NCBI RefSeq assembly: GCF_900103485.1 | Contig: NZ_FNHW01000001.1 | Coordinates: forward strand, 1,399,418 to 1,463,417 | Direction: 5' to 3' | Length of the DNA: 64,000 nt | DNA from: Fictibacillus solisalsi | Lineage (GTDB): Bacteria > Bacillota > Bacilli > Bacillales > Fictibacillaceae | In this document: one piece after another, positions 6,889-60,068 of the stretch | How positions within the stretch are numbered: position 1 is the stretch's first letter | Layout of the letters: the number at the start of each line of letters is the position of its first letter | Position numbers and translations under genes: made by a program | Notes under the pieces: model-generated | Database searches by the model: none | The model's input: only the letters and a program-made list of their open reading frames with translations | What the model was told of the DNA's origin: nothing

Positions 6889-8809
<1,921 letters not shown>

Positions 8810-43274: not shown

Positions 43275-44576
43275 CTATTTTTGTATTATAGCGCCCTTTT
43301 CTTTACGTTGATTAAGTATAACGACTCTTTGCTCCGATCCAGGCATAAACACACTCAAAACGATTGAAAGTGTTAATCCTGCCATCATAAATCCACCGAA
43401 TACCCATGGCGACGGACCGAATGATTCTGCCATGGCTCCCCACATAATGGGACCAAAGCCTGCAAGGGCTGCAGCCACCTGATAGCCGACAGACAAGCCG
43501 GTATACCGGACATTGGCGGGAAACAGTTCAGAGAACAACGTCCCCTGTGTTGCAAAAATCGCCCCCCACAATACCCCAAGCATGATGGCCTGCATCAGAT
43601 AAAGCCAGCCGGCACCCTCATCAATAATCGAAAAGTAAGGAACAACGAGGAGAAACATTAACACCAAACCGCCTATGTAAATTAATTTTCGGCCAATATA
43701 ATCGGATAAATATCCAAAAACTGGGATGGATACCAGCATGGTGGCACAGCCGATTGTGAGCGCCGTTAATGCAGTGTCACGGGAATAGCCGAGATACACG
43801 GTGGCAAAAACGAGCAAATAGGACATGGAAAAAACGTTGAAGAACCCATCGCCCACCTTTAAACCTATTGCACGGAGAACGTTCTTCCAATCCTTCCTGA
43901 AGGTTTCAACAATCGGCACAGCTGCGATGTTGCCGCTTTCCTTTTCCTTTTTGAAAGCGGGAGTTTCTTCAATTCCGCTTCGTACCCAGATTGCCAAAGC
44001 AATTAATACGCCGCTCAGCAAAAAGGGAATCCTCCATCCCCATGCCATAAACTGACTGTCGGTTGTCAGATAACTGATCAACGTTAAGCTGAATGAACCT
44101 GTAACCAAGCCGATTGGAACACCCATTTGTGGAATTGATCCATATAACCCGCGCAAGCCTTTCGGGGCATACTCCGTTGCCAGCAAAATCGCTCCTCCCC
44201 ATTCGCCGCCAAGTGCAATACCCTGAATCAGACGAAGCGCAACCAGCAACACAGGCGCGAGTAATCCAACCTGTGCATAGGTGGGGAGTACGCCAATCAG
44301 CATCGAACTGCCTCCCATGCCAATTAATGTAAATATCAAGGATGCTTTTCTTCCCATCCGGTCTCCCATATGACCGAATACGATACTCCCTATAGGTCTT
44401 GCAGCATACCCTGCTCCAAAGGTTAAAAAAGCAAGAAGAAGAGAGATAGCCGGATCATGTGAAGGAAAATAAAGCGTCGAAAAAACAAGACCTGTAGCTG
44501 TTCCATACAAATAAAAGTCATACCATTCAATGACCGATCCGGCCAGACTTGCGAATAAAATTCGGCTTTTTTTCAT
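43275..44576 (-). CDS. MFS transporter, metabolite:H+ symporter (MHS) type
   Basis: A 433-residue, 12-helix carrier. SVIEWYDFYLYGTATGLVF in helix 1, GHMGDRMGRKASL between helices 2 and 3, RLIQGIALGGEWGGAILLATEYAP and FGYLSDYIGRKL are the MHS (ProP/ShiA/KgtP) signatures. It imports an organic acid or betaine-like metabolite with protons. It lies 28 bases downstream of an acyl-CoA synthetase on the same strand, so the substrate may be a carboxylic acid activated by that enzyme. Confidence 0.92.
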   Translation of the reverse strand: MKKSRILFASLAGSVIEWYDFYLYGTATGLVFSTLYFPSHDPAISLLLAFLTFGAGYAARPIGSIVFGHMGDRMGRKASLIFTLIGMGGSSMLIGVLPTYAQVGLLAPVLLVALRLIQGIALGGEWGGAILLATEYAPKGLRGLYGSIPQMGVPIGLVTGSFSLTLISYLTTDSQFMAWGWRIPFLLSGVLIALAIWVRSGIEETPAFKKEKESGNIAAVPIVETFRKDWKNVLRAIGLKVGDGFFNVFSMSYLLVFATVYLGYSRDTALTALTIGCATMLVSIPVFGYLSDYIGRKLIYIGGLVLMFLLVVPYFSIIDEGAGWLYLMQAIMLGVLWGAIFATQGTLFSELFPANVRYTGLSVGYQVAAALAGFGPIMWGAMAESFGPSPWVFGGFMMAGLTLSIVLSVFMPGSEQRVVILNQRKEKGAIIQK

Positions 44577-44604
44577 GATGCATGCTCCTTTGTTTATGTA
44601 ATGG

Positions 44605-46134
44605 TTAAATTGAATAATTCTTTGAAAAGCGGGCTCGAAGCTCCTTTTTCATGATTTTCCCATAGGCATTCTTGGGCAAGGTGTTTACAAAATGAATAAT
44701 GGATGGCTTTTTATAGCTAGCTAAATTCGCTTTGCAATACTCCTTTATTTCCTGCTCTGTAATGATCTGACCTTCTTTTAAAACGATGGCTGCACAGACC
44801 GCTTCACCCCATTCCGGATCAGGAATGCCAAATACATTCAATTCTTCGATTTGTGGATGCTGAAGCAACACGTCCTCCACTTCACGAGGATAAATATTGT
44901 TGCCTCCACTGATGATCATGTCTTTTGTTCGGTCCAAAATGTATAAAAATCCTTTATCATCGATGAAACCGACATCCCCTGTGTAGAGCCAGTCATCTTT
45001 TATAGCTTTTTCAGTGGCTGACTGGTCATTCCAATAGCCTTTCATCACCAAGTCTCCTTTCACGGCTACTTCTCCAATTTTCCCGGCTGGCAGTTTGCCG
45101 TCCTGCTGATTAAAGATGGCAATCTCAACTCCCGTTCGTGCCGTTCCCGCAGATGATAAAACGGTGCTATCCCCCAGTTGATGCTGTTCGCGGCTTAATC
45201 CGGTAATGGTCATTGGGCATTCCCCCTGGCCATACACCTGTGCAAAAATTGGACCAAATGAGTGAATGGCCGCTTTTAAATCCTCCACATACATCGGTGC
45301 ACCTCCGTAAAGAATGCATCTAAGACTATCCAGCCTATATTGTTTTTTCTTATCCGAGTCCGTTAACCGCTTCAAGATGGTGGGCGCCAGAAACGGCAAA
45401 ACGCTCACTTTATGCTTTTCTATAAGCTCAAAAACACGTTCAGGCATAAAGTTGCTTGATTCTAAAATAACCTGGGTTCCGCCTTGAGCGATAAGAGGTA
45501 AAGCATATAAACCAGATCCATGACTTAAGGGTGCCGCATGCAAACCAATATCACTTTGTCTGAAAGGATACAAATCAGTACATAAACTAAGGACCATAAG
45601 CAGCAAATTTCGATGTGTCAGCATGGCTCCCTTTGGACGGCCAGTCGTTCCAGATGTGTAAAAAAGCCAGGCCAGATCTTCACCACTAACAGTGGCAATT
45701 TCCTCATGCTTATTCCCTTGACTTAGAAAATTCTCGTAGTTTTGGTCAAAGGAAATGAACAGCCGGGCTGATAAATTTCCCTTCATTCCTGCAACTTGTT
45801 CCTGATACACGCCATCATAAAAAAAAGCGGCTACTTCACTGTGATTTAAAATATACAAGACTTCGTTTTCATGGAGACGGAAGTTTAGCGGCACAACAAC
45901 CAGGCCCGCCTTCCAAACTGCAAACATCACTTCAAGGATTTCCGGTCGGTTTGGAGAAAGAATAGCGACTCGATCCCCGGGATTTAAGTTAGCTTTCAGT
46001 ACAGACGCCAATTGAGTAACCCGATAACTCAGCTGTTGAAATGTTAGAGCCTTTCCTCTATAGACGATGGCATTATGATCCGGATAAGCGGCTGCAGACT
46101 TGCTCAACAAATACGCCAGATTCATAGCTGTCAT
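44605..46134 (-). CDS. AMP-forming acyl-CoA synthetase
   Basis: A 509-residue ANL enzyme: P-loop LFYTSGTTGRPKGAMLTH, the A5-like motif QVYGQGECPMT, the hinge WLYTGDVGFIDDKGFLYILDRTKDMIISGG and the C-terminal catalytic Lys in AYGKIMKKELR. It activates a carboxylic acid with ATP and CoA. It is followed by an MHS-type transporter, suggesting an uptake-and-activation unit for an aromatic or short-chain acid. ATG 46134 has GGAG ten bases upstream. A possible cre-like site lies at 46154-46168 with two mismatches. Confidence 0.92.
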   Translation of the reverse strand: MTAMNLAYLLSKSAAAYPDHNAIVYRGKALTFQQLSYRVTQLASVLKANLNPGDRVAILSPNRPEILEVMFAVWKAGLVVVPLNFRLHENEVLYILNHSEVAAFFYDGVYQEQVAGMKGNLSARLFISFDQNYENFLSQGNKHEEIATVSGEDLAWLFYTSGTTGRPKGAMLTHRNLLLMVLSLCTDLYPFRQSDIGLHAAPLSHGSGLYALPLIAQGGTQVILESSNFMPERVFELIEKHKVSVLPFLAPTILKRLTDSDKKKQYRLDSLRCILYGGAPMYVEDLKAAIHSFGPIFAQVYGQGECPMTITGLSREQHQLGDSTVLSSAGTARTGVEIAIFNQQDGKLPAGKIGEVAVKGDLVMKGYWNDQSATEKAIKDDWLYTGDVGFIDDKGFLYILDRTKDMIISGGNNIYPREVEDVLLQHPQIEELNVFGIPDPEWGEAVCAAIVLKEGQIITEQEIKEYCKANLASYKKPSIIHFVNTLPKNAYGKIMKKELRARFSKNYSI

Positions 46135-46307
46135 TCTTCACACTCCTTTCACTTTGATAGCGGTTACGCATAGAACTGATTCGTTATGTTATCTCACATA
46201 ATGATCATTCCTCTCCGTTAAAGATGAAGTTATCAGATTATTCAGCTATTAAATTATCTTCTATAATAGACCTGCCTCCCCAAAAAGTAAATCCTTGTAA
46301 AAGTAAA

Positions 46308-46331
46308 AAGCAACTTCCGAAGAAGTTGCTT
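46308..46331 (-). terminator. Terminator of the yhf-like operon
   Basis: AAGCAACTTC (46308-46317) pairs with GAAGTTGCTT (46322-46331). On the minus strand it runs into TTTTACTTTTAC. It overlaps the stop codon of the phosphatase gene and would end the whole nine-gene transcript. Confidence 0.85.
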
Positions 46332-47136
46332 ATAAATCCGTCATATACCTTTTTTTGTTTCTAAAATACGCCCACTCCCGGAACCCGATCTCCTTTAACC
46401 GCTTCTGGACTTCTTCAAATTCATCGCCGACCCGCTTCGGAGTGTGAGCATCAGAGCCGAACGTTACAGCTACACCATGAAACAGAGCCCGTTCAAGTAG
46501 TTCATCAGCAGGATACCATCCACCACAGTCTTTGTTCTTTCCAGATGTATTAATTTCAATGGCAATTTCGTACTGCGAAATGGTTTTCAACGTTTTGTCA
46601 ACGGCCTCGGTTTGGATTGTGGAAAAAGCAGGATAGTATCCTTTCATGGCATCAATATGGCCGAGGATCTGAAAAATCCCGCTTTTGGCCGATTGCTCGA
46701 TCAAACCATAGTAGGTTTCTTTCGTTTCGTGCTTTTGTTTTTCGGTTAACCCCTCCCAGCGTTTTCTTTTAAAAATACTTAACCCGGTCACATGATGAAC
46801 CGATCCGATAATGTAATCGAGCGGAAATTGCTCATAGTATTGACGGTACATTTCGACATGCTCAGGGAAAAAGTCTGATTCCACACCCAATAGCACTTCT
46901 ATTTTTCCCTGGTACTCTTCCTTGAGCTGAATGACCTCCTTGATGTATTGGGGAAAATGACTTTTGGCCATCGCAATACCTGGAAAGAGATGATCTTCTT
47001 CGCTGTAAAGATAGGGTGAATGGTCAGAAATTCCGATCATGTCCAAATGGTTTTCAATTGCAGCCTCAATGTATGCGCGAATACAATCTTCCGCATGGCC
47101 ACAGCGGTCATGGTGAGTATGATAGTCAAATTTCAT
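46330..47136 (-). CDS. PHP-family phosphatase, histidinol-phosphatase (HisJ/HisK) like
   Basis: 268 residues from ATG 47136 (AGAGGTGG upstream; an in-frame GTG three codons earlier is less well placed). The metal motif is FDYHTHHDRCGHAEDC (His6, His8, His9, His14); further ligands are in GISDHSPY, LGVESDFFPEH, GSVHHVTG, LGHIDAMKGY and GSDAHTPKRVG. The length equals that of Bacillus HisJ. No histidine-biosynthesis genes are nearby. As the last gene of the yhf-like operon, it may instead remove phosphate from that pathway's intermediate. E. coli's cluster has YhfW here instead. Confidence 0.88.
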   Translation of the reverse strand: MKFDYHTHHDRCGHAEDCIRAYIEAAIENHLDMIGISDHSPYLYSEEDHLFPGIAMAKSHFPQYIKEVIQLKEEYQGKIEVLLGVESDFFPEHVEMYRQYYEQFPLDYIIGSVHHVTGLSIFKRKRWEGLTEKQKHETKETYYGLIEQSAKSGIFQILGHIDAMKGYYPAFSTIQTEAVDKTLKTISQYEIAIEINTSGKNKDCGGWYPADELLERALFHGVAVTFGSDAHTPKRVGDEFEEVQKRLKEIGFREWAYFRNKKRYMTDL

Positions 47137-47171
47137 GTAAACCACCTCTTTTTAAATTAAAGTCTAGTATC

Positions 47172-48461
47172 TTATTTTTTGATGGAGGTATAAACAATAT
47201 TGGCGATTTCCCTTGAAAGCGGACCTGTACTTGGATAACTCCCACTTGGGAGTGGTCCGTTATTCTGCTTGTTGGTCAGCACGATAATCTGCAGGTTGTA
47301 TGCCGGATCAAAAATAACCTGTGTGCCAGTAAAGCCGGTGTGTCCGAAAGCTTTGGAAGAGTAATAGTCTCCCATGTACCAGTTTTTAGCCTTTTCCCAG
47401 CCATACCCCTGCCCAAATGCATGCTCCGAAGTGAAGTTTTGAATGGTTTTCGGGGTATACACCTTTTCCTTCCCATAAGAACCGCCGTTCAGCATCATTT
47501 GGCCGATGACGGCTAATTCCCTTGCTGTAGAAAACAATCCTGCATGGCCAGCAACTCCTCCATTGGCATAAAAACTGTTGCCATCATTCACTTCTCCTAC
47601 CAGCGTGTAATGCCGCCAGCCAGGAAACATGTCCGGGTCCTCTTCTACATAATAGCCGAAATCGGGATCATCTATCATTTTATATTCGTACGGATTTCCC
47701 CAAGAGGTCGCTGCAATCTTATGCCTCAGTCTGGCATCGGGGGTAAACATGGTATTTTTCAGTTTCAGTGGCTGATAGATTTGAGTTTCCAGATAAACAT
47801 CAAGCGGCTGGTGAGTGATTTTTTCAATGACAAAGCCCAGGGTCATAAAACTAAAATCACTATAAACGCGTTTGGTGCCTGTTGGGTATTCCAGGGGTAA
47901 GTTGTTAATGATCTTCAACACTTGCTTGGGATTTCCGGCATATAAGTAGGTTGGTTTCCAAGGGGTTAATCCTGAAGTATGAGTAAGTAAATCGGCAATC
48001 GTCACATGCTCTTTTCCATTTTGTCCGAAGTCAGGGATATACTTTACAACCGGGTCGGAGAGCTTCAGCTTTTTTTCGTCAATGAGCTTCATGATGCCTT
48101 GTGTGGTACCCATTACTTTGGTCACAGAAGCTAAATCAAATAGTGTGTTCTTTTTCATTTTACGGGGATGGGAAAGCAGAACACCCATGTCATATTTTTG
48201 CGCATCTCCGTACGCGGTTTCTTTTACGACCTTCCCGTTTCTCGCGACCAAGACGACAGCGCCAGGCGTCATTCCGGTTTGAATCGCCTGCTTAGCCACC
48301 CCGTCAATTTTCCGTAACGCCCCAGAACTCATTCCTACAGATTCAGCATGCCCGTATGTGAGTTTCGCAACATGAGCAGAAGCCTCCGCTCCGGCAGGTA
48401 TGGCAGCCGATAGAACACAAAAAGTAATGAAAACACTCAACCACTTCTTCAAAACAATCAC
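47172..48461 (-). CDS. Exported serine hydrolase (class C beta-lactamase/PBP-like)
   Basis: A 429-residue protein with a signal peptide (residues 1-27, AIPAGAEASA). The active-site Ser112-x-x-Lys is in DLASVTKVMG, the Tyr motif is YSD in KRVYSDFSF, and the third box is near FGHTGFTG. The fold is that of class C beta-lactamases, DD-peptidases and esterases. It lies 18 bases after yhfX in the yhf-like operon, which suggests that the pathway's substrate is released outside the cell from a peptide- or ester-linked precursor. That is inference; antibiotic resistance is not implied. Confidence 0.85.
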   Translation of the reverse strand: MIVLKKWLSVFITFCVLSAAIPAGAEASAHVAKLTYGHAESVGMSSGALRKIDGVAKQAIQTGMTPGAVVLVARNGKVVKETAYGDAQKYDMGVLLSHPRKMKKNTLFDLASVTKVMGTTQGIMKLIDEKKLKLSDPVVKYIPDFGQNGKEHVTIADLLTHTSGLTPWKPTYLYAGNPKQVLKIINNLPLEYPTGTKRVYSDFSFMTLGFVIEKITHQPLDVYLETQIYQPLKLKNTMFTPDARLRHKIAATSWGNPYEYKMIDDPDFGYYVEEDPDMFPGWRHYTLVGEVNDGNSFYANGGVAGHAGLFSTARELAVIGQMMLNGGSYGKEKVYTPKTIQNFTSEHAFGQGYGWEKAKNWYMGDYYSSKAFGHTGFTGTQVIFDPAYNLQIIVLTNKQNNGPLPSGSYPSTGPLSREIANIVYTSIKK

Positions 48462-48479
48462 TCCTTTACCCTTTTATTT

Positions 48480-49643
48480 TTACATTCCTCTCCGCTGAAA
48501 GTGAACAATCTCCGGGTTAGGGGAATTTGTTCGTCGAATAAAAGCTACATGGGATCTCGTGACAAAAATCTGTGATCGAAAGGCATAGATCACTGAATCT
48601 CCAACATTCATTTCATTGTTTTTCTCTAGACTTCCATAATAATCGATATTTTCATAAGACGGAGGCTGAACTCTTGCCTCTTGTTTCAATAGACGTTGAG
48701 GGGTATTGCCATAAAACGCTTTTTCCATATTGGACCTAGCGTAAAAACCTCCAGCAATCGTATAAGCCGCGTAATCATCCATATGGGAAATTTCTGAAAC
48801 ATAAACCATACAGGGAGTTTCGTCCAGAGATGGTAAATAGGCATGAAGCGGTGTGGTTCCGGTCATGGCATGCCCTGGCTCTCCATGTGTAATACCATGT
48901 TCTTTTAAAAGAGGGATGGTAAAACAGCTGGTTGACCCTGGCGCATTGATATGAGTCACCCGCACACCTTGATCCTCCATGATCCCTCTCGCTTTTTTTA
49001 AGGTTTCGAGGTTCGTAGTAAAATCAAAACCCGTTTTATTTTTGTTGAGCTGCAGAACCGGAAAGCTTGTCAGCCCGATCACGTTTATTCCTGGAAGCTT
49101 GTTCAATTCAGGGATCACATCATTCATTGTTTTGAGAGGAAATCCTCCATGCTGGCCAGGATACAGCACATCGTGTTCACTGATAACACGAAGTATCACA
49201 TCCTGCGTTTTTCCAAGAGACAACGCCGCATCAGACAGCTGTTTTGCCCGCTCCAAAGAAAATAGGGTGATCACTTCAGAACAGATTTGGGTAAGAACTG
49301 CTTTCCATTGCATGATCCCAGGCTGAACCAAATGCCCGAGGTTACCAATTTGGCAGCCTGCTTCCTTAAGATTAAATCCTTCATCGATATCCACAGCAAC
49401 TGCTTTTGAAATACCGTTCTGTTCAATGACCTTTCCAATATAACCGCTTCGCCCGATTTGTTTCGTCATATAATACAATTGCAAATCATGCTTTTTGGCA
49501 CATCGGGAGAGCCTTTGAACATTGAGGGAAAAGGAATCGAGATCAACCACATACGTATTGGGTGGAATGGACCCGTTTTGATGAAGGGCTGCAGCAGTTT
49601 TGATTAAAGCTGGGTTTCTCTTTAACATTACGTCTGTAAACAT
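48480..49643 (-). CDS. yhfX: PLP-dependent alanine racemase/decarboxylase-like protein YhfX
   Basis: A 387-residue fold-type III PLP enzyme, with an N-terminal barrel and C-terminal beta domain. The Schiff-base Lys is probably Lys61 in LQLYYMTKQIGRSG, after YVVDLDSFSLNVQRL. Later HINAPGSTSCFTIPLLKEHG and HAMTGTTPLHAY match the YhfX family rather than true alanine racemase. Substrate and reaction are unknown in any organism known to me. It sits 14 bases after yhfS in the same order of families as the E. coli yhf genes, though rearranged. It is probably cytosolic. Confidence 0.85.
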   Translation of the reverse strand: MFTDVMLKRNPALIKTAAALHQNGSIPPNTYVVDLDSFSLNVQRLSRCAKKHDLQLYYMTKQIGRSGYIGKVIEQNGISKAVAVDIDEGFNLKEAGCQIGNLGHLVQPGIMQWKAVLTQICSEVITLFSLERAKQLSDAALSLGKTQDVILRVISEHDVLYPGQHGGFPLKTMNDVIPELNKLPGINVIGLTSFPVLQLNKNKTGFDFTTNLETLKKARGIMEDQGVRVTHINAPGSTSCFTIPLLKEHGITHGEPGHAMTGTTPLHAYLPSLDETPCMVYVSEISHMDDYAAYTIAGGFYARSNMEKAFYGNTPQRLLKQEARVQPPSYENIDYYGSLEKNNEMNVGDSVIYAFRSQIFVTRSHVAFIRRTNSPNPEIVHFQRRGM

Positions 49644-49657
49644 TTGCCGGCAGCCCC

Positions 49658-50767
49658 TTATGTTATGTCTTCCATTATATGGTGAAATATCGTTATCACG
49701 GTGAGTGCGGAGGCTTTCATCGGATTGACGCGGAGACCAAATTCTTTTAAGCGCGGCTGATGTTCAAGGAAACTTCCAGATACCCGGTAAATCATGGGCA
49801 ACAGTTCATATTTCGATTCAGCGCCAACCGGGTAGGTCGCTGCACCATGGCGGCTTGCGTTTTCAATCACTTTTTGGGCAATAGGCTCCTTCAGCTCTAT
49901 GATCACATTTTTTGACTGGGAATTGGTAATATACGCTTCTTTTACGAAAGGGACCTCTCCTTTATTTAGTCTTTCGCACAATTCTTCCACCTGTTCATTT
50001 TGGATGGCCAGCATGACAGGTGCCATCGTCATGGCGCGAAGCAATTCATGGGCTTCATGTCCTTGAACCTGTCCCCCTCCTGAATAATTGCGCCTATGGA
50101 GTGTTTCGATGAAATCTTTCGTTCCCAAAATGACTCCAATTCCTTCCGGCCCCAGAACTTTAAAGCCGGAAAAGGTGGAAACATGAGCCCCATATTCAAC
50201 GCCTATTCCCTTCATTTTTAAAGCGCAATAGTTATCATCAACCATGATCATCACATCCGGCCGGAGAGCTTTGACGAGAGCGATCACTTCCTCAACCCGA
50301 TAGGTGTCTGTTGGCTGCTGCCTTGCGTGCTGAACATAAAATACCTTGGTTTCTGTATTTTTTTGCAAGGCTTTAATCAGTTGCTCCTTGTGGTTGTAAT
50401 TTACCGGTTGCTGCACTAACCCCATTAGGCGAAAGGTTTCCTTTGTGGTCATGTACATCGGTGCATCATGGACAAAAACAGGATCTCCCGGTTCAGCAAC
50501 AATACTTAACGCTAACCGGATGGCACCGGTGCCGCTTCCTCTTACCAGGGCACACGCTTCACTGCCAAATACATTGGCGATGACTTTTTCCACCTTTGCT
50601 GTCGTTTGCGGCCGATGATGGTCAGGATGCAATCCGACATCGCCGAGGGTAAAGAATGAATTGTGGTGAAAGACCCTGGTCATCTCTTCTACCAATCGGA
50701 ACTGCAGTTTCTTTGCTTCTTCCATTGTTCGGTTCTCCAACACGGAGTCACCATATTTCAGTGGCAT
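49658..50767 (-). CDS. yhfS: PLP-dependent aminotransferase-like protein YhfS
   Basis: 369 residues from ATG 50767, placed behind the strong AGGAGGTGA; the longer open frame back to 50854 lies inside php. It is fold-type I: VRGSGTGAIRLALSIV binds the PLP phosphate, MIMVDDNYCALKM has the pyridine-nitrogen Asp, and TFSGFKVLGPEGIGVI carries the Schiff-base Lys203. It resembles YhfS of the E. coli cluster and class V or selenocysteine-synthase-like enzymes. The reaction is unknown. It is five bases from php, so the two are probably translated together. Confidence 0.85.
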   Translation of the reverse strand: MPLKYGDSVLENRTMEEAKKLQFRLVEEMTRVFHHNSFFTLGDVGLHPDHHRPQTTAKVEKVIANVFGSEACALVRGSGTGAIRLALSIVAEPGDPVFVHDAPMYMTTKETFRLMGLVQQPVNYNHKEQLIKALQKNTETKVFYVQHARQQPTDTYRVEEVIALVKALRPDVMIMVDDNYCALKMKGIGVEYGAHVSTFSGFKVLGPEGIGVILGTKDFIETLHRRNYSGGGQVQGHEAHELLRAMTMAPVMLAIQNEQVEELCERLNKGEVPFVKEAYITNSQSKNVIIELKEPIAQKVIENASRHGAATYPVGAESKYELLPMIYRVSGSFLEHQPRLKEFGLRVNPMKASALTVITIFHHIMEDIT

Positions 50768-50772
50768 ACCAT

Positions 50773-51693
50773 TCACCTCCTCTCCTTGATGCTGAACGCT
50801 TTTTTTGGATTTTCCATCAACAGCTTCTCGATGACCGATTCTGATACTCCCCATTTTTTCAGTGCGGGAACAAAGGACCGGAGGACAACGTCATACCCTT
50901 GTCCTCCGAAAGAACGCAGATGGGATTTTCTTGTAAGATCACTGGAAAGCAGAAGCTGGTCTTCATATCCCTCTTTCAAAAAAAGAAGCAGGGCATTCAA
51001 GCGATCCTGATCGGATCGGTAATTTTCTTTACCGATCGTGTCGAGAGCGACATATGCCCCGCTTTTTAATACGTCTAAAACTACTCCGTTATCCCGGTTT
51101 AAGTCCTGATGTCCAATGATGACCTGATGAAGAGGCAATCCTTCTGTTATAAATAAATTGATCTGGTCAGCAGCACAAGTACCCAGGGTGGTATGGGTGG
51201 AGAGAGGCAAACCCGTCTGACGGGCTGCCTCAATCGCGCCATGGAACAATTCTGATTCAATGGGTTTAAATTCGTTAAAGCTGCTGCCAATCTCGCCAAT
51301 AACCCCGGGTTTGATGGCTGTTCCAGCAATACCGTGACAAATTTCATCTGTCATCCACTCAGCAAACTGATCACGGGTCCATTGCTTTTTTTCTTCAGGG
51401 ATAAAAGGGTCCTTATAACAGCCTGTGCTTGCGACAATATGAAGGTCGAGTGTTGTGCTCAAATGTTTCAAGATCTCCGGGTTCCTGCCCATTCCATCAT
51501 TCGTGACCTCGATCACCGTCCGGCCGCCAAGCGCTTTAAATTGCTCCAAGTCTTCTGCGACTAACTTTTCATCCTGCAGACAGCAATCCTGGTCGTTTTT
51601 AATATGACTTAAATCCACATACAGGTGTTCATGACAAGCACAGATGCCCAATTCATCTGGCTCTATCGGGCCTTTCACAGTTTGTATAGGCAT
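50773..51693 (-). CDS. php: Phosphotriesterase-homology protein Php
   Basis: A 306-residue amidohydrolase-superfamily barrel. The binuclear metal set reads His21 and His23 (CACHEHLYVDL), Glu134 (GVIGEIGSS), His167 (LSTHTTLG), His195 (VIIGHQDL) and Asp252 (LLSSDLTRK). Glu replaces the carbamylated Lys of true phosphotriesterases, as in E. coli Php. Spacing of the ligands matches that protein. The reaction is unknown; related enzymes open lactones or cleave phosphoesters. The ATG follows AAGGAGG. Confidence 0.9.
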   Translation of the reverse strand: MPIQTVKGPIEPDELGICACHEHLYVDLSHIKNDQDCCLQDEKLVAEDLEQFKALGGRTVIEVTNDGMGRNPEILKHLSTTLDLHIVASTGCYKDPFIPEEKKQWTRDQFAEWMTDEICHGIAGTAIKPGVIGEIGSSFNEFKPIESELFHGAIEAARQTGLPLSTHTTLGTCAADQINLFITEGLPLHQVIIGHQDLNRDNGVVLDVLKSGAYVALDTIGKENYRSDQDRLNALLLFLKEGYEDQLLLSSDLTRKSHLRSFGGQGYDVVLRSFVPALKKWGVSESVIEKLLMENPKKAFSIKERR

Positions 51694-51705
51694 GTGTTCT
51701 CCTCC

Positions 51706-53004
51706 TTAGCCTGCAGGCGGTATGTACAATCCAATCCACACGAGGATGTTTCCGAGGATTCCAACGGCAATAGCCCCGATTGGACCCACAGCCATGCGGA
51801 CAATTGGCCGGCCAGCTGCCTCGTTCAGCAAGTATAGTCCGGCAATCACAAAAAAACCGAATCCTGGGACAATGGCGTTGGCTGCGTTCGCACCGCCGAT
51901 CAGCAAAGCCACTTCAAGCACCCGTGTCATGGCTGTACGAATGTTTTCGCCCGATTCGCGAATACCCGGGTAGCGGTCAAGCACTTTGGCTAACTGTGTC
52001 AGCAGCATTACTTCGGTAAAGATAATGACTGCCCCCAGAATGGCGGCGAGGAAAGGATTGGGTGAAAAAATACCTGCGCCAAAAACAAAGGTAAATCCAA
52101 CAGGACCATATACCCCCGTTGCAATAGCGGTACTTGCGATTAATGGGACGAACCCAATCGCTTTTGCGAGTGAAGCAATGCCGCCTTCGGAAATCTTGCC
52201 GTCAGAAAGCAGGTTAAGAGAAATGGGATCACCGGCAATCATAAGCTGATTGGTGGCAACTGCCACGAGAGCCCCGCTGATCATTAAAACCCAGGAGTAC
52301 TTCCTGATTTTTGCGACCCGTTCGGTAAACAATGAGGCAAGTATGGAAAGATTCTGGTCTTCAGATTTTTCCTTGATGGCAAACGTAAGCAAAAAGATCA
52401 TTCCAATGATTAAGGCAATACCTTCTGGACTTAACACGATTTGTGTTCCGTTAATTGAAATCAGTTTTTCGGTGTTGGCAAAAACAATAAGTTGACGCGC
52501 AATGGCTGCGACAATAAAAGTAAGTACACCTTTCTTGATGCTGAATTGCAAGGCAACAGCAATGGCTGGAAACACCATAAAAGAAACTACCACCGGTTCG
52601 CCGACTTTATTGAATCCATCCACGAAATTAAGAGGCAGCAGTTTAAATACTTCAACGACCGACTGGAGTCCATAATAAATGCCAAGTCCATATAGCGCTC
52701 CCGCTATACCAGCCAATATGGCATTCACTTTGCTCCGGTTAAACGCGAGACCGATGATATCAGTACCAAGCAAGATACTGTGAATTAAGATAATACTCCC
52801 TGCAATCGAGATCGGAATTCCAAACCCGATGACAAGACCAAAGCTCATGGCAAAAGCAGTTACCCCTAATTCTTTGCGGCTCATCCGTCCTTCCAGATTT
52901 TCTGGTACGATCGGACGGAGACCATCATTAAAAACCGCGATGCCCAAATTAGCCATAACTGCAGCAAGCGCACCAATACAAACCATTAACCCCGCTTCCA
53001 GCAT
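51706..53004 (-). CDS. yhfT: YhfT-family polytopic membrane protein, probable transporter
   Basis: A 432-residue protein with about 11-12 hydrophobic helices and conserved Asn/Gly/Pro-rich stretches (LMVCIGALAAVMANLGIAVF near the start; FTFVFGAGIFSPNPFLAAIL later). It does not match MFS or ABC signatures and belongs with YhfT of the E. coli cluster. Its place among PLP enzymes and Php suggests that it imports the pathway substrate. The ATG follows AAGGGGG. Function is inferred from context only. Confidence 0.8.
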   Translation of the reverse strand: MLEAGLMVCIGALAAVMANLGIAVFNDGLRPIVPENLEGRMSRKELGVTAFAMSFGLVIGFGIPISIAGSIILIHSILLGTDIIGLAFNRSKVNAILAGIAGALYGLGIYYGLQSVVEVFKLLPLNFVDGFNKVGEPVVVSFMVFPAIAVALQFSIKKGVLTFIVAAIARQLIVFANTEKLISINGTQIVLSPEGIALIIGMIFLLTFAIKEKSEDQNLSILASLFTERVAKIRKYSWVLMISGALVAVATNQLMIAGDPISLNLLSDGKISEGGIASLAKAIGFVPLIASTAIATGVYGPVGFTFVFGAGIFSPNPFLAAILGAVIIFTEVMLLTQLAKVLDRYPGIRESGENIRTAMTRVLEVALLIGGANAANAIVPGFGFFVIAGLYLLNEAAGRPIVRMAVGPIGAIAVGILGNILVWIGLYIPPAG

Positions 53005-53029
53005 GATTTATCCCCCTTATTTTTTTGAC

Positions 53030-53395
53030 CTATGTGTATTGTTTCAGCAAAGCCCCCATTACGTATTCCACCGCTTGTTCCTTGTGATCTCCTGTAAAAC
53101 CAAATGCTTTTGCTCCTGATTCCACCGCTTGTTCCACTTGTTCTTTAACCGGCTTTTTACCAGGCATGGAAATAGTGGCACATTGCGGCTTTCCCAATAG
53201 AGCAATGGCCATGGCAAGTGCTCCGCCTCCCCCGGTATGGCAGGCTCCGAGGTAATAATCCGCTCCGCCTGATTTAATGAGCATGGCCGCTTCAAGATCC
53301 GATTTTATAACAACGTTAACCTGTTCTCCTCCCGCTGCCTTGACCAACTGTTGAATTTCCTGCTTTTCCACTTGTCCTCCGATTGCAATCCTCAT
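53030..53395 (-). CDS. yhfU: DUF2620 protein YhfU
   Basis: A 121-residue protein with a Rossmann-like start MRIAIGGQVEKQEI, a strongly conserved-looking loop YYLGACHTGGGGALAMAIAL (Cys-His followed by Gly-rich turn), and ESGAKAFGFTGDHKEQAV near the end. This matches the DUF2620/YhfU family. The Gly-rich loop suggests binding of a small phosphorylated ligand or cofactor. Its size and partnership with the YhfT membrane protein suggest a sugar-PTS-EIIB-like or accessory role, but that is a guess. Confidence 0.8.
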   Translation of the reverse strand: MRIAIGGQVEKQEIQQLVKAAGGEQVNVVIKSDLEAAMLIKSGGADYYLGACHTGGGGALAMAIALLGKPQCATISMPGKKPVKEQVEQAVESGAKAFGFTGDHKEQAVEYVMGALLKQYT

Positions 53396-53410
53396 TTGTC
53401 TCCCCCTCTG

Positions 53411-53755
53411 CTAAGCTGATAGCACATTCACAAAATGCAGGTACAAAAACTCTTTTTCTTCTTCCGGCAAGTTTTGATTTAACAGTTTTTCAATCCAGCC
53501 GACTCGTCCACGTGCTTCCTCCATTTTCGGAGATTGATAGACTTCCATCATGATATCCGTTGGCGGCGGGAGCAGCTCCTGCTCTCTTTCTATTCTTGTT
53601 AGTGCCATTGCGAGATGTGTAATCAGCATGGTGTACTGGTCCGCTTCATTCTCGCTTACAAATTTCTGAATGGTCTTCCGGCAAATGGCATAAGCCGTCT
53701 CGGTTATGGAATCGCTGTTTTTTAACAACTCCAGGCGTTCCAGTAATCCTTTCAC
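53411..53755 (-). CDS. yhfY: PRD-domain protein YhfY
   Basis: A 114-residue all-helical protein with one PTS-regulation-domain (PRD) pattern: TAYAICRKTIQKFVSENEAD, then LITHLAMALTRIEREQE, where the His is the usual phosphorylation site. It lacks any DNA-binding or RNA-binding domain. In the E. coli cluster YhfY has the same make-up. It may sense phosphorylation state, with the adjacent YhfZ as the DNA-binding partner. The ATG follows AGGAGG. Confidence 0.8.
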   Translation of the reverse strand: MKGLLERLELLKNSDSITETAYAICRKTIQKFVSENEADQYTMLITHLAMALTRIEREQELLPPPTDIMMEVYQSPKMEEARGRVGWIEKLLNQNLPEEEKEFLYLHFVNVLSA

Positions 53756-53783
53756 ATGAATCCTCCTTTCAAAAAAGCCTTCA

Positions 53784-54713
53784 TTAGTATTTAGGAAGAT
53801 GATCTCCCGTTTCTACCAATTCTTGAATCTGTTTTATCTTTTCTAAATTAATCAGGCTGAGTCCATAAGCCCCCTTTTTATTGTCTTTCCGAGCTACACA
53901 TACAGCTTCCCCCATGTACTCTTCCATCTTTTTAGCTAGAGGCGAAGAAAGCGGCATGGTATGATAGCGTTCATTATCCACCTCATCCAGATTCCAAATA
54001 GTAGCGTCGATTGTTTTTGCCTGAATATGCCGAAGCAAATGCATGTAATTCAGCTCGATGTATTGCACATTTTTATTCTTCGTTTCTTCTTTAATCAAAA
54101 CTTGTTGGTCGGTTGAGAACGGATCTATTCCTATTTTCATGCCGTCTTCAACGCTGATGTATTTTCGGTCTGAAAAAATAACCGCATGTTTGGAAACATA
54201 GGAATGGCTTCCAAACGAAAGAAGAGTAGAAAGTTCAGGATGTTCCTTCATGGCTTCGTTTGCTGAAAACCTGGAAACGATGGCAAATTCGTACCTGCCC
54301 TGTATCACCTCCTGAAGCCGGAGCTTTGCTCCTCTCATGAATGCAATACTTAATTCCATTCCCTGCACCTGACACTCTGCAGAAAGTCCGGATGCGAGAC
54401 CTTCGTACTTTTTGGAATAAGGCAATGGCATGATTCCCGTTAATCGCTCCATGCCGCAAAATCTCAACAGCTGAGGGATGTTTTTATACCGTAAAAAAGT
54501 TCCCAAATGTCCTTTGGCTTCGAGCCTGATACTTCCGGTTTCCTCCAAGTATTTTAGAACCGTCTGGATCGTACCTCTACCCACACCGTTTACACTCGCC
54601 AAATCACCAATTTTTGGAATGCGATGATCCACTTCAATGAATAAGAAAGATTCTGCTATTTTCTGCAGGATCATTCCTTTTTTTGATAAAAGCCGTTCAT
54701 TCATTTGTGTCAT
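53784..54713 (-). CDS. yhfZ: YhfZ-like transcriptional regulator, HTH + periplasmic-binding-like domain
   Basis: A 309-residue protein. The N-terminal GntR-like winged helix reads VDHRIPKIGDLASVNGVGRG followed by TIQTVLKYLEETGSI; a type-2 periplasmic-binding-like effector domain follows (residues 95-309: GIMPLPYSKKYEGLASGLSA, FAIVSRFSANEAM, IDATIWNLDEVD). It matches the YhfZ family and should control this operon. It is the first gene. A 14-bp palindrome lies 12-25 bases before its ATG, fitting autoregulation. Only a weak ribosome binding site (GTGGG) precedes the start. Confidence 0.85.
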   Translation of the reverse strand: MTQMNERLLSKKGMILQKIAESFLFIEVDHRIPKIGDLASVNGVGRGTIQTVLKYLEETGSIRLEAKGHLGTFLRYKNIPQLLRFCGMERLTGIMPLPYSKKYEGLASGLSAECQVQGMELSIAFMRGAKLRLQEVIQGRYEFAIVSRFSANEAMKEHPELSTLLSFGSHSYVSKHAVIFSDRKYISVEDGMKIGIDPFSTDQQVLIKEETKNKNVQYIELNYMHLLRHIQAKTIDATIWNLDEVDNERYHTMPLSSPLAKKMEEYMGEAVCVARKDNKKGAYGLSLINLEKIKQIQELVETGDHLPKY

Positions 54714-54724
54714 CCCACGCTTTG

Positions 54725-54738
54725 TACAAAATTTTGTA
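54725..54738. promoter_or_regulatory. Palindrome upstream of yhfZ, candidate autoregulatory operator
   Basis: TACAAAATTTTGTA is a perfect 14-bp palindrome 12 bases before the yhfZ start codon, within the promoter or leader of the nine-gene operon. No second copy was found in the window. Confidence 0.6.
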
Positions 54739-54794
54739 TTTTCAACAACAACATACCATATGTCAAAGAAGGAGACAACAAATTTTTAGAAAAT

Positions 54795-54826
54795 TAAAAA
54801 AAGAGCCACCTAACAGGATGGCTCTT
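54795..54826 (-). terminator. Terminator of the MetE-like gene
   Basis: On the minus strand AGAGCCATCC and GGTGGCTCT form a stem with one bulge, followed by TTTTTTTAATTTTC. It separates this gene from the yhf-like operon. Confidence 0.85.
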
Positions 54827-54852
54827 GTTCCCTTACTATTTAATTGGATGTT

Positions 54853-55956
54853 TTATTTCCATACCTCGTTAGCTATAGAAACCACATGTCTGATTTTCTC
54901 CCACTGCTGTTCCTCTGTCAGCAGGTTTCCTTCCTCTGTGGAAGAAAAACCACACTGAGGACTGAGACAGATTTGATCCAGTGGCACATATAGGGAAGCT
55001 TCACGAATTCGTTTCTTAATAAGCTCGGGATCTTCCAATTCGCCGAACTTTGATGTAATGAGGCCCAGAACAATCTGTAAATCGGAGCGATTCACATGGC
55101 GAAGCGGTTCGAAACTCCCTGAACGTTCATCATCAAATTCAAGAAATAACCCGTCCACTTTTAGTTTGCCGAAAATATACTCGGAAGCATTATCATAGCC
55201 TCCGCTTGCCGTATAGCTGGACTTAAAGTTTCCTCTGCAGATGTGCATGGTGATGACCATGTCTTCAGGCTTTTTGGCAATGGATTCATTAATGGCACGT
55301 GTAAATCGTTCAAGCAATTCATCTATTGAGTAACCTTTCGCGGCAATCTGTTCCTGACCCTTTTCAGAGAAGAAGACAGCCCACGCCGTGTCGTCTAGCT
55401 GCAGATACCGGCAGCCAGCATCATAAAAGGCTTGAATGGCTTTTTGGTAAACCGTGATCAGATCGTTAAAAAATTCATCTTTGTCTGGATATACCTTTTC
55501 ATCAATCGTTCCCCTGAAAAACAGCATGTTAGGGCTGGGGATGGTGAATTTTGCGGCATGGTCCCCTGCAAGATCATGAAGGAATTTATAATCTTCAAGC
55601 ATCGGATGGTCGCTAAAGTCCAGTTTCCCAACGACCTTGATTCCGTGCGCTTTTGTTTGTACACCGTTAAACTGAATGCCGGCGTCTGTTTCGTAAAGCT
55701 CCACGCCTCCTAATTGAGACAGAAAATCAAAATGCCACCATGCACGGCGAAACTCTCCATCTGTTACGGCCTGTAGCCCTGCTTCTTTTTGTTTTTCAAC
55801 AAGACGGATAATCTCTTCATCTTCAATTTTCCGAAGCTGTTCTCTCGTAATGTCTCCATTTTGGTGAAGGACACGGGCTTCTTTAACTCGCTCAGGGCGC
55901 AAAAAACTCCCGACATGATCGGCTTTGTAAGGTCCTTTTGTTAACGTTGTTGTCAA
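54853..55956 (-). CDS. Cobalamin-independent methionine synthase-type methyltransferase (YxjG/YxjH-like)
   Basis: A 367-residue protein similar to the catalytic C-terminal half of MetE. Zinc-ligand motifs are His and Cys in VITMHICRGNF, Glu in GLFLEFDDERSG and Cys in LSPQCGFSS. GPYKADHVGSFLRPERVKEA is the usual N-terminus of the short YxjG/YxjH proteins. Such enzymes transfer a methyl group to homocysteine from folate or other donors. The TTG start at 55956 has AAGGAG nine bases upstream. No SAM riboswitch or T-box was seen. It is expressed as a single gene. Confidence 0.9.
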   Translation of the reverse strand: MTTTLTKGPYKADHVGSFLRPERVKEARVLHQNGDITREQLRKIEDEEIIRLVEKQKEAGLQAVTDGEFRRAWWHFDFLSQLGGVELYETDAGIQFNGVQTKAHGIKVVGKLDFSDHPMLEDYKFLHDLAGDHAAKFTIPSPNMLFFRGTIDEKVYPDKDEFFNDLITVYQKAIQAFYDAGCRYLQLDDTAWAVFFSEKGQEQIAAKGYSIDELLERFTRAINESIAKKPEDMVITMHICRGNFKSSYTASGGYDNASEYIFGKLKVDGLFLEFDDERSGSFEPLRHVNRSDLQIVLGLITSKFGELEDPELIKKRIREASLYVPLDQICLSPQCGFSSTEEGNLLTEEQQWEKIRHVVSIANEVWK

Positions 55957-57537: not shown

Positions 57538-58767
57538 TTATATTGATTCAATCGAACCCGAGACGATTTTTCCTTTGAACATCGTAGCTATTCGTTTCGC
57601 CCTTCTCGCAATCGCTTCGGCAGAACAAGATGCCTCAACTACTACGATGCTAGCTTCATCCCCGGCTTTTGGCCAAACTTGTTCACCTTTAGAATTAAGC
57701 GGTGTTTTTCCATCTGTAATAAAGGAGAGCGTTTGAGCTAATGATTGTTCATCTACCCATCCTGAAATTTCTGCTAAACGACCAGCACGTTCTAATACAT
57801 CTCCATTACCAAAGGGAGACCAAACATCAAAAATATTATCACATCCAACGGCAACTAATACCCCTTTCTCGTGCAATAAGCTTATCGGCGGAAACCTTCG
57901 ATCAATCGGAATGCTGGAAATAATGGTTATACCGGCATCAGCGAGTAATTCTGCTATTTCTTCTGCCTGAGATAATGGGATATCCCCGAGTCCAAATGCA
58001 TGGCTAATCGCAACCTTACCTTGCAGACCGGCTTCTTTTGTTAACTGAGCCAATCTTTTCATAGTGAAAATCCCCAGATGATCGGGATCATGCAAATGCA
58101 AATCAATTCCTGCATTTCCTTCTACGGCAAGTTCAACCATCTTTTGTAAAGATGCTTCTATATCGCCGTCCACGGTAGCCGGATCAACTCCACCTACAAA
58201 GTTTGCACCTTTGGAAAGTGCCTCCCTTACTAAATCTTTCGTATTCGTTCGCAATAAACCATGTTGCGGAAAGGCAACAATTTCATATGATAGTTTCCCT
58301 TCAAATGTTTGCAATGCTTGTTTTACTTCTTCCAAATTCTTCAACCCGACCTCTGGATAAATATCTACATGTGTTCGTACATGCGTTACGCCGGATATCA
58401 AATAACGTTCAAGTAACTTTTCCGCACGTTCTTTCGTAGTTGTCTCCAGGGTAGGTAGAACTTCTTTTTCAATTTCAAGTCGTTCAAAGATACTATTGAC
58501 AGCTGTGACCGGACGCCATCGATCTCCAAGCATCGTTTTGTCTAAATGACAATGTTTTTCGATGAACGATGGAAGCACCAGCTTCTGTTTCGCATCTCTT
58601 TTTGGTAAATCATCAGTTATCGTTTCAGCGGACGGTACAATCCTCGCAATCTTTTGTCCTTTGATTAGTAGGTGGAAACATTCCGTCTTTGTCCCTGAAA
58701 TGACACCATTCTCGAACTGGTAGCCTGTCTCCAACCGTGCATTTGTTATCCAAAAGGTGGAATTCAT
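57538..58767 (-). CDS. Cytosine-deaminase-like amidohydrolase, copy 1
   Basis: A 409-residue metal-dependent deaminase/hydrolase. KHCHLDKT supplies the HxH, GNAGIDLHLHDPDHLG a further His pair, KVAISHAFGLGD another His, and VAVGCDNIFDVWSPFGNGD the catalytic Asp region, as in the CodA/AtzC type. It is cytosolic. It has a close paralog directly upstream (58796-60025) and belongs to the same minus-strand cluster as nucleoside deaminases under LysR control. The substrate is probably a pyrimidine- or triazine-like amino heterocycle, not settled by sequence. Confidence 0.87.
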   Translation of the reverse strand: MNSTFWITNARLETGYQFENGVISGTKTECFHLLIKGQKIARIVPSAETITDDLPKRDAKQKLVLPSFIEKHCHLDKTMLGDRWRPVTAVNSIFERLEIEKEVLPTLETTTKERAEKLLERYLISGVTHVRTHVDIYPEVGLKNLEEVKQALQTFEGKLSYEIVAFPQHGLLRTNTKDLVREALSKGANFVGGVDPATVDGDIEASLQKMVELAVEGNAGIDLHLHDPDHLGIFTMKRLAQLTKEAGLQGKVAISHAFGLGDIPLSQAEEIAELLADAGITIISSIPIDRRFPPISLLHEKGVLVAVGCDNIFDVWSPFGNGDVLERAGRLAEISGWVDEQSLAQTLSFITDGKTPLNSKGEQVWPKAGDEASIVVVEASCSAEAIARRAKRIATMFKGKIVSGSIESI

Positions 58768-58795
58768 ATATGATCTATCCCTTCTAATTCAATAC

Positions 58796-60025
58796 TTAAA
58801 GTGCCCCGAAAACCATATTTCCTTCAAAGAAAACAGCCATCCTTCTTGCTCTCCTTGCAATCGCTTCGGCTGAACAACTCGCATCAACGAAAACGAGATT
58901 GGCAGCATCTCCCCTATTTGGCCAAACACGTTCTCCTTCTTTATTTATTGGGGTTATACCACCTGTAATAAATCCCAGGGTTTGTCCAAGTGAACATTCA
59001 TCAATCAGGTTAAAACGTTCCGCTAATGTCCCTGCTTTTTCCAAACTGTCTCCTTTTCCAAAAGGAGACCAGTGATCTGTGATACTATCGTCACCAAGGG
59101 AGACCTTTACTCCTTTCTTCTGCAGGAGAGGAATCGGAATTGTCCTTCCAATAGGAACTGATGATGTAACCGAAATTCCCTGATGTGCGAGTAACTCTGC
59201 GACTTCACTTGTTTCTTCAGTTGAGATATCCGCAAAAGCAAATCCATGACTTATGGTAACTCTACCTTGCCATCCGGCTTCTTCGGTCAAAGCGGCTAAT
59301 CGTTTAAACGTAAAAATACCGAGATGACCCGGGTCATGTAAATGAAGGTCAATGTCTGCATCGCCTTCAACTGCAAGTTCAATTACTGTTTGCAAGGATT
59401 TCTCAATATTTTCATCAATTGATGCAGGATCAACACCACCTACTAACGAGGCTCCGTTTCGCAGTGCCTCTCTTACGAGTGAAACCGACTTGCTTCGTAA
59501 TAATCCATGTTGCGGAAAAGCGACAATTTCAACGGAAGCCTTTCCTTTATAAGCTTCCACTGCTTGTAAAGTTGCTTCCAGATTTTTTAATCCGATAACA
59601 GGATCAACATTACAATGTGTACGAATGTGAGTCGAGCCTGAATTCAATAGTAAGTCGATTAATTTTTCCGCTCTTTCCTCTGCAACCGGCAACAAGAGCG
59701 GAAGTAATTCTCGCTCTTCCTCCAACCTTGTCAAAAGACCCTTCGTTGGAACCGTCGGTGCTTTCCAAGGACCTCCGTAGTATGTTTTATCAATATGGAT
59801 GTGCATATCTCTGAAGGATGGAAGCATTAAATAGTTTTTCGCATCCAGGTGAGGTAAATTCGTCATTAATGGTTTTTCAGCTGAGACAATTTCTTTTATC
59901 TTCCCATCTTCAATCCGTACATGAAAATGTTCTGTTGTTGTTCCAGTTACTGCACCATTTTCATATTGGTACCCTGCTTCCAAACGGACATTCATTAACC
60001 AATAAGCATTGGATGTCATGTTCAT
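58796..60025 (-). CDS. Cytosine-deaminase-like amidohydrolase, copy 2
   Basis: Also 409 residues, collinear with copy 1 throughout, e.g. VEIVAFPQHGLLRSKSVSLV, GGVDPASIDENIEKSLQ and LHLHDPGHLGIFTFKRLA. The HxH is DMHIHIDKT, and the Asp region is VSLGDDSITDHWSPFGKGD. The paralogs differ at the metal-proximal residues (FRDMHIHID against IEKHCHLD), which suggests different substrates. The ATG follows GAGGAAGG. It lies 43 bases after the nucleoside deaminase. Confidence 0.87.
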   Translation of the reverse strand: MNMTSNAYWLMNVRLEAGYQYENGAVTGTTTEHFHVRIEDGKIKEIVSAEKPLMTNLPHLDAKNYLMLPSFRDMHIHIDKTYYGGPWKAPTVPTKGLLTRLEEERELLPLLLPVAEERAEKLIDLLLNSGSTHIRTHCNVDPVIGLKNLEATLQAVEAYKGKASVEIVAFPQHGLLRSKSVSLVREALRNGASLVGGVDPASIDENIEKSLQTVIELAVEGDADIDLHLHDPGHLGIFTFKRLAALTEEAGWQGRVTISHGFAFADISTEETSEVAELLAHQGISVTSSVPIGRTIPIPLLQKKGVKVSLGDDSITDHWSPFGKGDSLEKAGTLAERFNLIDECSLGQTLGFITGGITPINKEGERVWPNRGDAANLVFVDASCSAEAIARRARRMAVFFEGNMVFGAL

Positions 60026-60068
60026 TAGCCTTCCTCACATTATGATTGTAAAAAAGTTCTGCTATCAA

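Follow-up and report, generated by a model that had tools for sequence, protein, structure and literature searches.

A yhf gene cluster of Fictibacillus solisalsi with a conserved operator-like palindrome and an exported serine hydrolase co-inherited with YhfT

The yhf operon is found in Escherichia coli K-12 and in many Firmicutes, and its pathway is not known. The operon is listed among riboswitch predictions (PMC4448311), a DUF2620 gene and a YhfX-family gene are among the genes marking one clade of L. rhamnosus (PMC7513527), and E. coli K-12 can do without yhf genes, as yhfY to yhfS are missing from DGF-298 (PMC10652928). Our literature search, with most subscription papers outside its reach, returned lists and deletions of yhf genes and no functional study, in agreement with a preliminary description of the locus reported here, which had called the operon one without a known pathway. 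That locus is a cluster of nine genes in a 64,000-nucleotide stretch of Fictibacillus solisalsi DNA (contig NZ_FNHW01000001.1, positions 1,399,418 to 1,463,417), hereafter the window. In E. coli K-12 (L002; L numbers are our locus handles), yhfZYXW-php-yhfUTS form one same-strand run that opens with yhfZ and yhfY. The window cluster opens in the same way and holds the same seven families, whereas yhfW is missing and two genes that the E. coli cluster lacks are present, encoding an exported serine hydrolase (SerH) and a PHP-family phosphatase. Gene order also differs, being U-T-php-S-X in the window versus X-W-php-U-T-S in E. coli, as first described. All nine proteins pass curated Pfam cut-offs, and profile searches did not place YhfT, DUF2620 or YhfX in unrelated families. 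The nine genes run on the minus strand from 54713 to 46330 with intergenic gaps of 28, 15, 25, 12, 5, 14, 18 and 26 bases, the last becoming 35 bases with a better start at ATG 47136, which bears out the compact layout (gaps of 5-36 bases) given originally. The window cluster is a lineage variant of this known orphan operon.

Two other described systems share parts with it. The first is muropeptide recycling, encoded by murQRP-amiE-nagZ in Bacillus subtilis and by murQP-yfeW in E. coli. Window SerH is 36% identical to YfeW, whose gene comes after murQP; AmiE is presumably a member of the family that contains both. SerH nevertheless forms a separate subfamily (across 397 genomes no score lies between 564 and 285 bits), and murQ and murP are not among the nine genes of the window. 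In B. subtilis, amiE encodes an extracellular N-acetylmuramic acid (MurNAc)-L-Ala amidase (PMC5061867). The second is the EF_0829-EF_0839/AHA_3910-3917 cluster (DgaE/DgaF-like; L205), which has a PRD protein, the small protein EF_0830, membrane proteins, an amidohydrolase, a fold-type-I pyridoxal phosphate (PLP) enzyme and a HAD phosphatase. EF_0830 is distant kin of YhfU at most (window YhfU scores 17.9 bits against the EF_0830 model, cut-off 141.1) and is found alongside a DgaE-like ammonia lyase and a DgaF-like aldolase, whereas the window cluster has no aldolase. The membrane proteins EF_0832/0833 have no profile link to YhfT, and no open reading frame (ORF) of L205 matches YhfX, YhfW or SerH.

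A conserved palindrome before yhfZ

Relatives were collected with a YhfT profile search that returned 336 encoding stretches. The top 80 of these, the ones that resemble the window most, were all examined and form the main survey, to which 11 further Bacillota loci, one Cetobacterium plasmid and E. coli were added; L211 is apparently the same contig as L072. YhfT-bearing means above the family cut-off, and weaker hits (G142, G519 and G546) were excluded. In an order-wide sample of 397 genomes from the window's order, 33 carry YhfT by this definition.

The palindrome noted before yhfZ in the preliminary description is a perfect 14-base TACAAAATTTTGTA that ends 11 bases ahead of the yhfZ ATG. 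An operator-like palindrome is conserved before yhfZ across relatives: with two mismatches or fewer, AATATAC-N8-GTATATT occurs in 65 of 86 yhfZ upstream regions (79 main-survey loci with yhfZ, five further loci, E. coli and the window), compared to a mean of 0.5 and a maximum of 2 in 30 shuffles. These regions took in 60 bases of reading frame, except for the window and E. coli. The shorter form TACARWWWWYTGTA is exact in 37 of the 86 (shuffles, 0.1); the window site matches this form with no mismatch and the longer one with four, and the E. coli region needs two mismatches to fit the shorter form. In a whole-genome scan of 44 of the 80 genomes, chosen by us, there were 46 exact copies of the longer form (our own sum) versus 4 for the reversed control pattern, and 34 of the exact sites fall in the 44 yhf loci. 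Within the 80 loci, sites with at most one mismatch number 104 (control, 1) and those with at most two number 160 (control, 19). The former lie upstream of yhfZ (43/79 genes), yhfY (40/81), yhfU (4/81) and php (1/80), and also of SerH (4/13), a GlcD-like oxidase linked to flavin adenine dinucleotide (FAD) (3/3, all one clade), an amidase-like gene (2/28) and NagB (1/9). None was seen before the 81 yhfT, 80 yhfS, 80 yhfX, 74 yhfW, 5 phosphatase and 4 MetE-like genes of these loci. YhfZ itself passes its NCBIfam equivalog NF041241 with 346 bits (cut-off 260). This distribution suggests that the palindrome is a conserved YhfZ operator, and its position in the window, overlapping the -10 element of the best promoter-like match, would be consistent with repression.

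At L048:1110, L053:1115 and L068:365 an exact copy of the site stands in front of a gene for a FAD-linked oxidase, itself located ahead of yhfZ and, in L048, GlcD-like by NCBIfam; in this clade the operator-bearing gene points to a step on a 2-hydroxy acid.

The exported serine hydrolase

The window SerH translation has SxxK, YSD and HTG motifs and a signal-like start. It scores below the PBP4B/YfeW equivalog NF002968 (306 vs 385 bits), so that it is a relative and not a member, and far below the class C beta-lactamase cut-off (NF033085, 75.9 vs 415), as with every class C model among the 25 families listed. A yhf-type SerH, scoring 564-986 bits, is present in 18 of the 397 genomes of the order; the next score is 285 and nothing falls between. 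The hydrolase is co-inherited with YhfT, as all 18 genomes are YhfT-bearing (18/33 vs 0/364 of the others, Fisher 1.6e-22). This value is inflated by kinship, and counting by genus is fairer, though still not free of kinship: all eight genera with SerH lie within the 17 of 135 that carry YhfT (Fisher 1.1e-8).

In the main survey, SerH scores over 270 bits in 13 of the 80 loci, a count that leaves out 17-bit matches in L059 and L065 and the additional, lower-scoring copies of L042 and L043. Seven of the 13 genes stand directly after yhfX or yhfW, and six are transcribed apart (L045, L069, L082, L086, L087 and L098). Four of these six (L045, L082, L087 and L098) have an operator with at most one mismatch within 300 bases. 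Three SerH copies of the order sample are far from the cluster, and two of them (L208 and L209) carry a one-mismatch site 27-50 bases upstream. Counting yhf-type genes placed separately from the cluster, a strong operator therefore precedes 4 of 7 (L045, L087, L208 and L209), or 6 of 9 if more distant forms are included. Taken together, co-occurrence and shared operators suggest that SerH is a dedicated partner of the yhf system, a stronger tie than the preliminary description had drawn when it listed two added hydrolases.

At L098:292-2801, two operator copies with one mismatch each lie between a distant SerH gene (minus strand) and a gene with a weak LPXTG anchor match (plus strand), possibly a surface member of the YhfZ regulon. 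L042 and L043 add the second SerH-like gene and a large gene, which in L042 is GH3 and closest to beta-N-acetylhexosaminidase (201 bits, cut-off 207). An M23 peptidase gene is directly before yhfZ in L046 (6971-8068), and L056 has a gene of the same size there; these are in keeping with a link to the cell wall.

YhfW, the phosphatase, YhfU and other genes

The preliminary description called the window cluster a Firmicute version of the operon, which proves too broad, since yhfW is kept in 74 of the 80 main-survey loci and in all 11 further Bacillota loci (split in L023). Five loci (L028, L030, L042, L043 and L072) lack it; in a sixth without a match, L095, the contig ends after yhfX and it was excluded from losses. 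The absence of yhfW noted for the window cluster extends to the whole genome: Fictibacillus YhfW finds nothing above 99 bits in the window genome or in the five other YhfW-less genomes, compared to 456, 585 and 910 bits in three YhfW-bearing controls. The best match in the window genome (113 bits with E. coli YhfW, 81 with Fictibacillus YhfW) is a DeoB-like gene beside ORFs that by eye resemble nucleoside phosphorylases.

The PHP phosphatase passes the HisJ-family model TIGR01856 (183 vs 90.2 bits) and NF005596 (231 vs 202) and falls under the equivalog HisJ model NF005996 (108 vs 133); the window genome has two further HisJ-like paralogs. Compared with 2YXO it keeps His, Asp and Glu residues resembling metal ligands. 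Orthologs, defined as matches over 330 bits, were sought in 39 of the 80 genomes, chosen by us, and found in 17, comprising all five that lack YhfW and 12 of the 34 that have it. Away from yhf they stand beside genes of many kinds, among them aldose epimerase, glycosidases and LysR. The phosphatase is a near neighbor of yhf, no farther than 10 kb from either end, in 5 of the 80 loci, four of them YhfW-less, and in L213, outside the main survey, it lies near yhf although YhfW is kept. Replacement of YhfW by the phosphatase is plausible and only suggestive, so the idea of a phosphatase standing in for YhfW comes out weaker than first stated. On a tree of four proteins and 81 rows (built by a quick method, with 17 of 78 inner branches open and one long-branch join flagged), the minimum number of changes is 3 for YhfW, 10 for SerH, 2 for the phosphatase, 5 for the amidase-like gene and 8 for NagB.

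Eight of the 80 loci (L046, L056, L058, L061, L064, L066, L068 and L100) have a NagB-like gene on the same strand, either within the cluster or immediately following it; L097 has one nearby, and L038 has one within the cluster but on the opposite strand. The two NagB-like proteins scanned both pass the glucosamine-6-phosphate deaminase equivalog TIGR00502 (297 and 310 vs 236.9 bits). Among nine aligned, E. coli NagB residues D72, H143 and E148, which we assume to be functional, are kept, and D141, presumably likewise, is replaced by N. The L100 gene has its own exact operator. A short relative of the amidase-signature family occurs in 28 of the 80 loci, in 17 of them between yhfT and php; of six such proteins scanned, four score over the PF01425 cut-off and two just below. 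Single loci carry kinase-like genes: one resembling APH/homoserine kinase 9 bases ahead of yhfZ (L024:6260-7270) and one resembling PfkB/ribokinase two genes past yhfW (L096).

The structure model of YhfU (DUF2620) has the fold of the RpiB/LacAB sugar-phosphate isomerases, with ribose-5-phosphate isomerases B as its nearest folds. Cys52, invariant in 64 YhfU sequences, aligns to the CGTG of 2ppw and of E. coli RpiB, and YhfU thus carries the RpiB/LacAB motif CxTG, whose cysteine we take to be catalytic. YhfU is shorter, at 121 residues compared to 149 in E. coli RpiB. At L061:9247-20476, yhfY-U-T occur once by themselves and yhfU-T again in a nearby full cluster. The model of YhfT (predicted local distance difference test, pLDDT, 87) has no clear fold match among the chains compared.

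The features of the window cluster are collected in Table 1. The terminator first described as overlapping the last stop codon is present as a hairpin with a T-run, and a second terminator-like site, at 54826-54801, closes the gene upstream of yhfZ; across the stretch 18 such sites are observed versus 9.7 expected, and promoter-like matches are not enriched (7 vs 15.2). The listed yhfS frame begins at 50854, and ATG 50767 is the likelier start.

Table 1. Coordinates and supporting matches of features in the window cluster
Feature	Position	Strand	Basis
Promoter-like site TTGACA-17-GAAAAT	54738..54766	-	10/12 matches, best in 46000-55200; consensus match only
Putative YhfZ operator AAAATACAAAATTTTGTACAAA	54721..54742	-	Perfect core TACAAAATTTTGTA at 54738-54725; overlaps -10 element
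yhfZ, GntR-like regulator	53784..54713	-	PF14502 (HTH_41/YhfZ_C pair with PF14503); NF041241; PDB relative 2OZZ
yhfY, lone PRD domain	53411..53755	-	PF00874, 43 bits
yhfU, DUF2620, RpiB/LacAB-fold protein (model)	53030..53395	-	Cys52 invariant, Thr54 near-invariant (64 sequences)
yhfT, polytopic membrane protein, putative transporter	51706..53004	-	PF10797, 603 bits
php, phosphotriesterase-family (PTE, amidohydrolase superfamily) enzyme	50773..51693	-	PF02126, 254 bits; PDB relatives 4LEF, 1BF6
yhfS, fold-type-I PLP enzyme	49658..50767	-	PF22475 (YhfS-like_C); PDB relative 4J8L
yhfX, alanine-racemase-like (fold type III) PLP enzyme	48480..49643	-	PF21279 (YhfX-like_C), PF01168 (Ala_racemase_N); PDB relative 4KBX
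SerH, exported serine hydrolase (PBP4B/YfeW branch)	47172..48461	-	PF00144 (Beta-lactamase); NF002968, 306 bits, under its cut-off
PHP-family (HisJ-like) phosphatase	46330..47145, likelier start 47136	-	TIGR01856, NF005596 over cut-off
Intrinsic terminator over last stop codon	46308..46331	-	Hairpin with T-run, computed

The closest named relative is the cluster of Fictibacillus enclensis NIO-1003 (L028; YhfT 97%), with the identical nine genes in the same order. Directly upstream of the window cluster is a MetE-like gene (54853-55956, minus strand; NF005085, 543 bits, over cut-off), the one closed by the terminator-like site at 54826-54801. In 4 of the 80 loci (L028, L083, L094 and L097) a MetE-like gene stands no more than 10 kb from yhf, and none of these has an operator. 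Past the yhf terminator, on the same strand (43275-46134), are a transporter resembling the major facilitator superfamily (by eye) and an AMP-ligase (PF00501), with no counterpart in the 4.6 kb after the twin cluster of L028. Further away on the minus strand, judged by eye from translations, are two amidohydrolase-like ORFs, in tandem and similar to each other, with a nucleoside-deaminase-like ORF after them (57538-60536) and a GroEL-like ORF (6889-8493) with no obvious GroES in the ORF list.

A candidate pathway and its alternatives

Our tentative reading, to which we give slightly less than an even chance, is that the nine genes form one YhfZ-repressed unit that takes up and catabolizes or salvages a phosphorylated amino-sugar conjugate, which SerH sets free. 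YhfZ would repress at the palindrome over its own promoter, and the nine genes would share a single transcript. Outside the cell, SerH would act on a larger compound, either conjugated or resembling cell wall, by cleaving an amide or ester linkage, and YhfT would import the product. Once inside, this would be treated as a sugar acid or amino sugar that is phosphorylated and bears an amino-acid-like group. Php may then open a lactone or hydrolyse an acyl or phosphoester bond, the two PLP enzymes YhfX and YhfS may work on the amino group, and YhfU may isomerise or bind the sugar phosphate. Where present, YhfW would shift the phosphate and NagB would release ammonia. The window cluster, which has no YhfW, may instead use its PHP phosphatase to strip the phosphate off. 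YhfY, through its PRD domain, may report the state of phosphorylation. The amino-sugar element draws on the NagB-like genes in or next to some clusters, on the parallel cluster L205, where EF_0830 accompanies a DgaE-like lyase and a DgaF-like aldolase, and on the relation of window SerH to YfeW. A more specific version, which we consider somewhat unlikely, has yhf as an undescribed route for extracellular amino-sugar compounds derived from muropeptides or glycoconjugates: a YhfZ-controlled, exported AmiE-like amidase of a new subfamily and a transporter of new fold, YhfT, would supply a PLP/PTE/RpiB-like set that breaks the import down to an amino or hydroxy acid, ammonia and a sugar phosphate, and a phosphatase could take the place of YhfW.

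Several observations weigh against this reading. The window operator departs from the longer consensus at four of 14 fixed positions and by that count is not unique within the window, and among the 80 loci sites with at most one mismatch also precede 16 of 728 other ORFs, which were not inspected individually. Yhf-type SerH is absent from 15 of the 33 YhfT-bearing genomes and is therefore accessory, not essential to the system. Two of the six operator-bearing SerH genes belong to more distant forms (400 bits in L082 and 281 bits in L098), which reduces confidence in the mechanism and makes the bystander alternative given below slightly likelier; that of L069 has only a two-mismatch site common to the divergent yhfZ, that of L086, a close relative of L087, has no site at four or fewer mismatches within 330 bases, and that of L210, far from its cluster, has none at three or fewer. 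Sequence alignments of YhfU show no evident counterpart of the remaining active-site His and Arg residues of RpiB, of its oligomeric site or of its C-terminal portion. Few clusters carry NagB or the GlcD-like oxidase, and the window has neither. Core yhf has no kinase that would account for the phosphate, and the clusters revealed no gene resembling MurQ, although no dedicated profile search for it was made, which leaves a muramic-acid route conjectural.

An alternative, in our view unlikely, has a pentose phosphate, or a phosphate derived from a nucleoside, as the substrate; YhfW would then be a genuine phosphopentomutase and YhfU would isomerise pentose phosphates. E. coli YhfW passes the phosphopentomutase model NF009049 (740 vs 254 bits), the folds nearest to the YhfU model point the same way, and a nucleoside hydrolase gene follows SerH in L042 (PF01156; closest NCBIfam UriH, 359 bits, below its cut-off of 450), with a gene alike in size alone at that place in L043. 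However, the nucleoside hydrolase comes from a single close pair of loci, and NagB and the amidase-like genes better suit nitrogen chemistry. Additionally, a DeoB-like gene stands apart in the window genome, and matches of equal strength and query position turn up in the remaining genomes without YhfW, indicating that YhfW is dispensable as a general phosphopentomutase. Cys52 of YhfU enters a different proposal, in which YhfU and YhfT make up a transporter like the phosphotransferase system, or another phosphorylating transporter, with YhfU as an EIIB-like phosphocarrier sensed by the PRD protein YhfY; we rate this improbable. Least probable, and very doubtful, is that SerH and the phosphatase are bystanders co-transcribed by chance: the phosphatase stands in varied contexts, is absent from 22 of the 39 genomes scanned and has no operator of its own at two or fewer mismatches in any of five yhf-neighboring copies, and yhf-type SerH is missing from the 15 genomes mentioned, but in the order sampled this SerH is confined to YhfT-bearing genomes and has operators at copies distant from the cluster, and the phosphatase shows at least two adjacency changes on the tree and an ortholog in all five YhfW-less relatives.

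Returning to the amino-sugar conjugate route, the interpretation originally offered, of an extracellular hydrolase feeding YhfT, is in part supported by the co-occurrence of SerH with YhfT, and is weaker where it generalized to Firmicutes and where it set the phosphatase in place of YhfW. For an operon shared by E. coli K-12 and many Firmicutes, three new handles result: an operator that outlines a regulon, an exported enzyme whose yhf-type form is confined to YhfT-bearing genomes in the sampled order, and a biochemical class for DUF2620. With the operator, the dedicated hydrolase and an RpiB-like YhfU, the function of yhf becomes testable.

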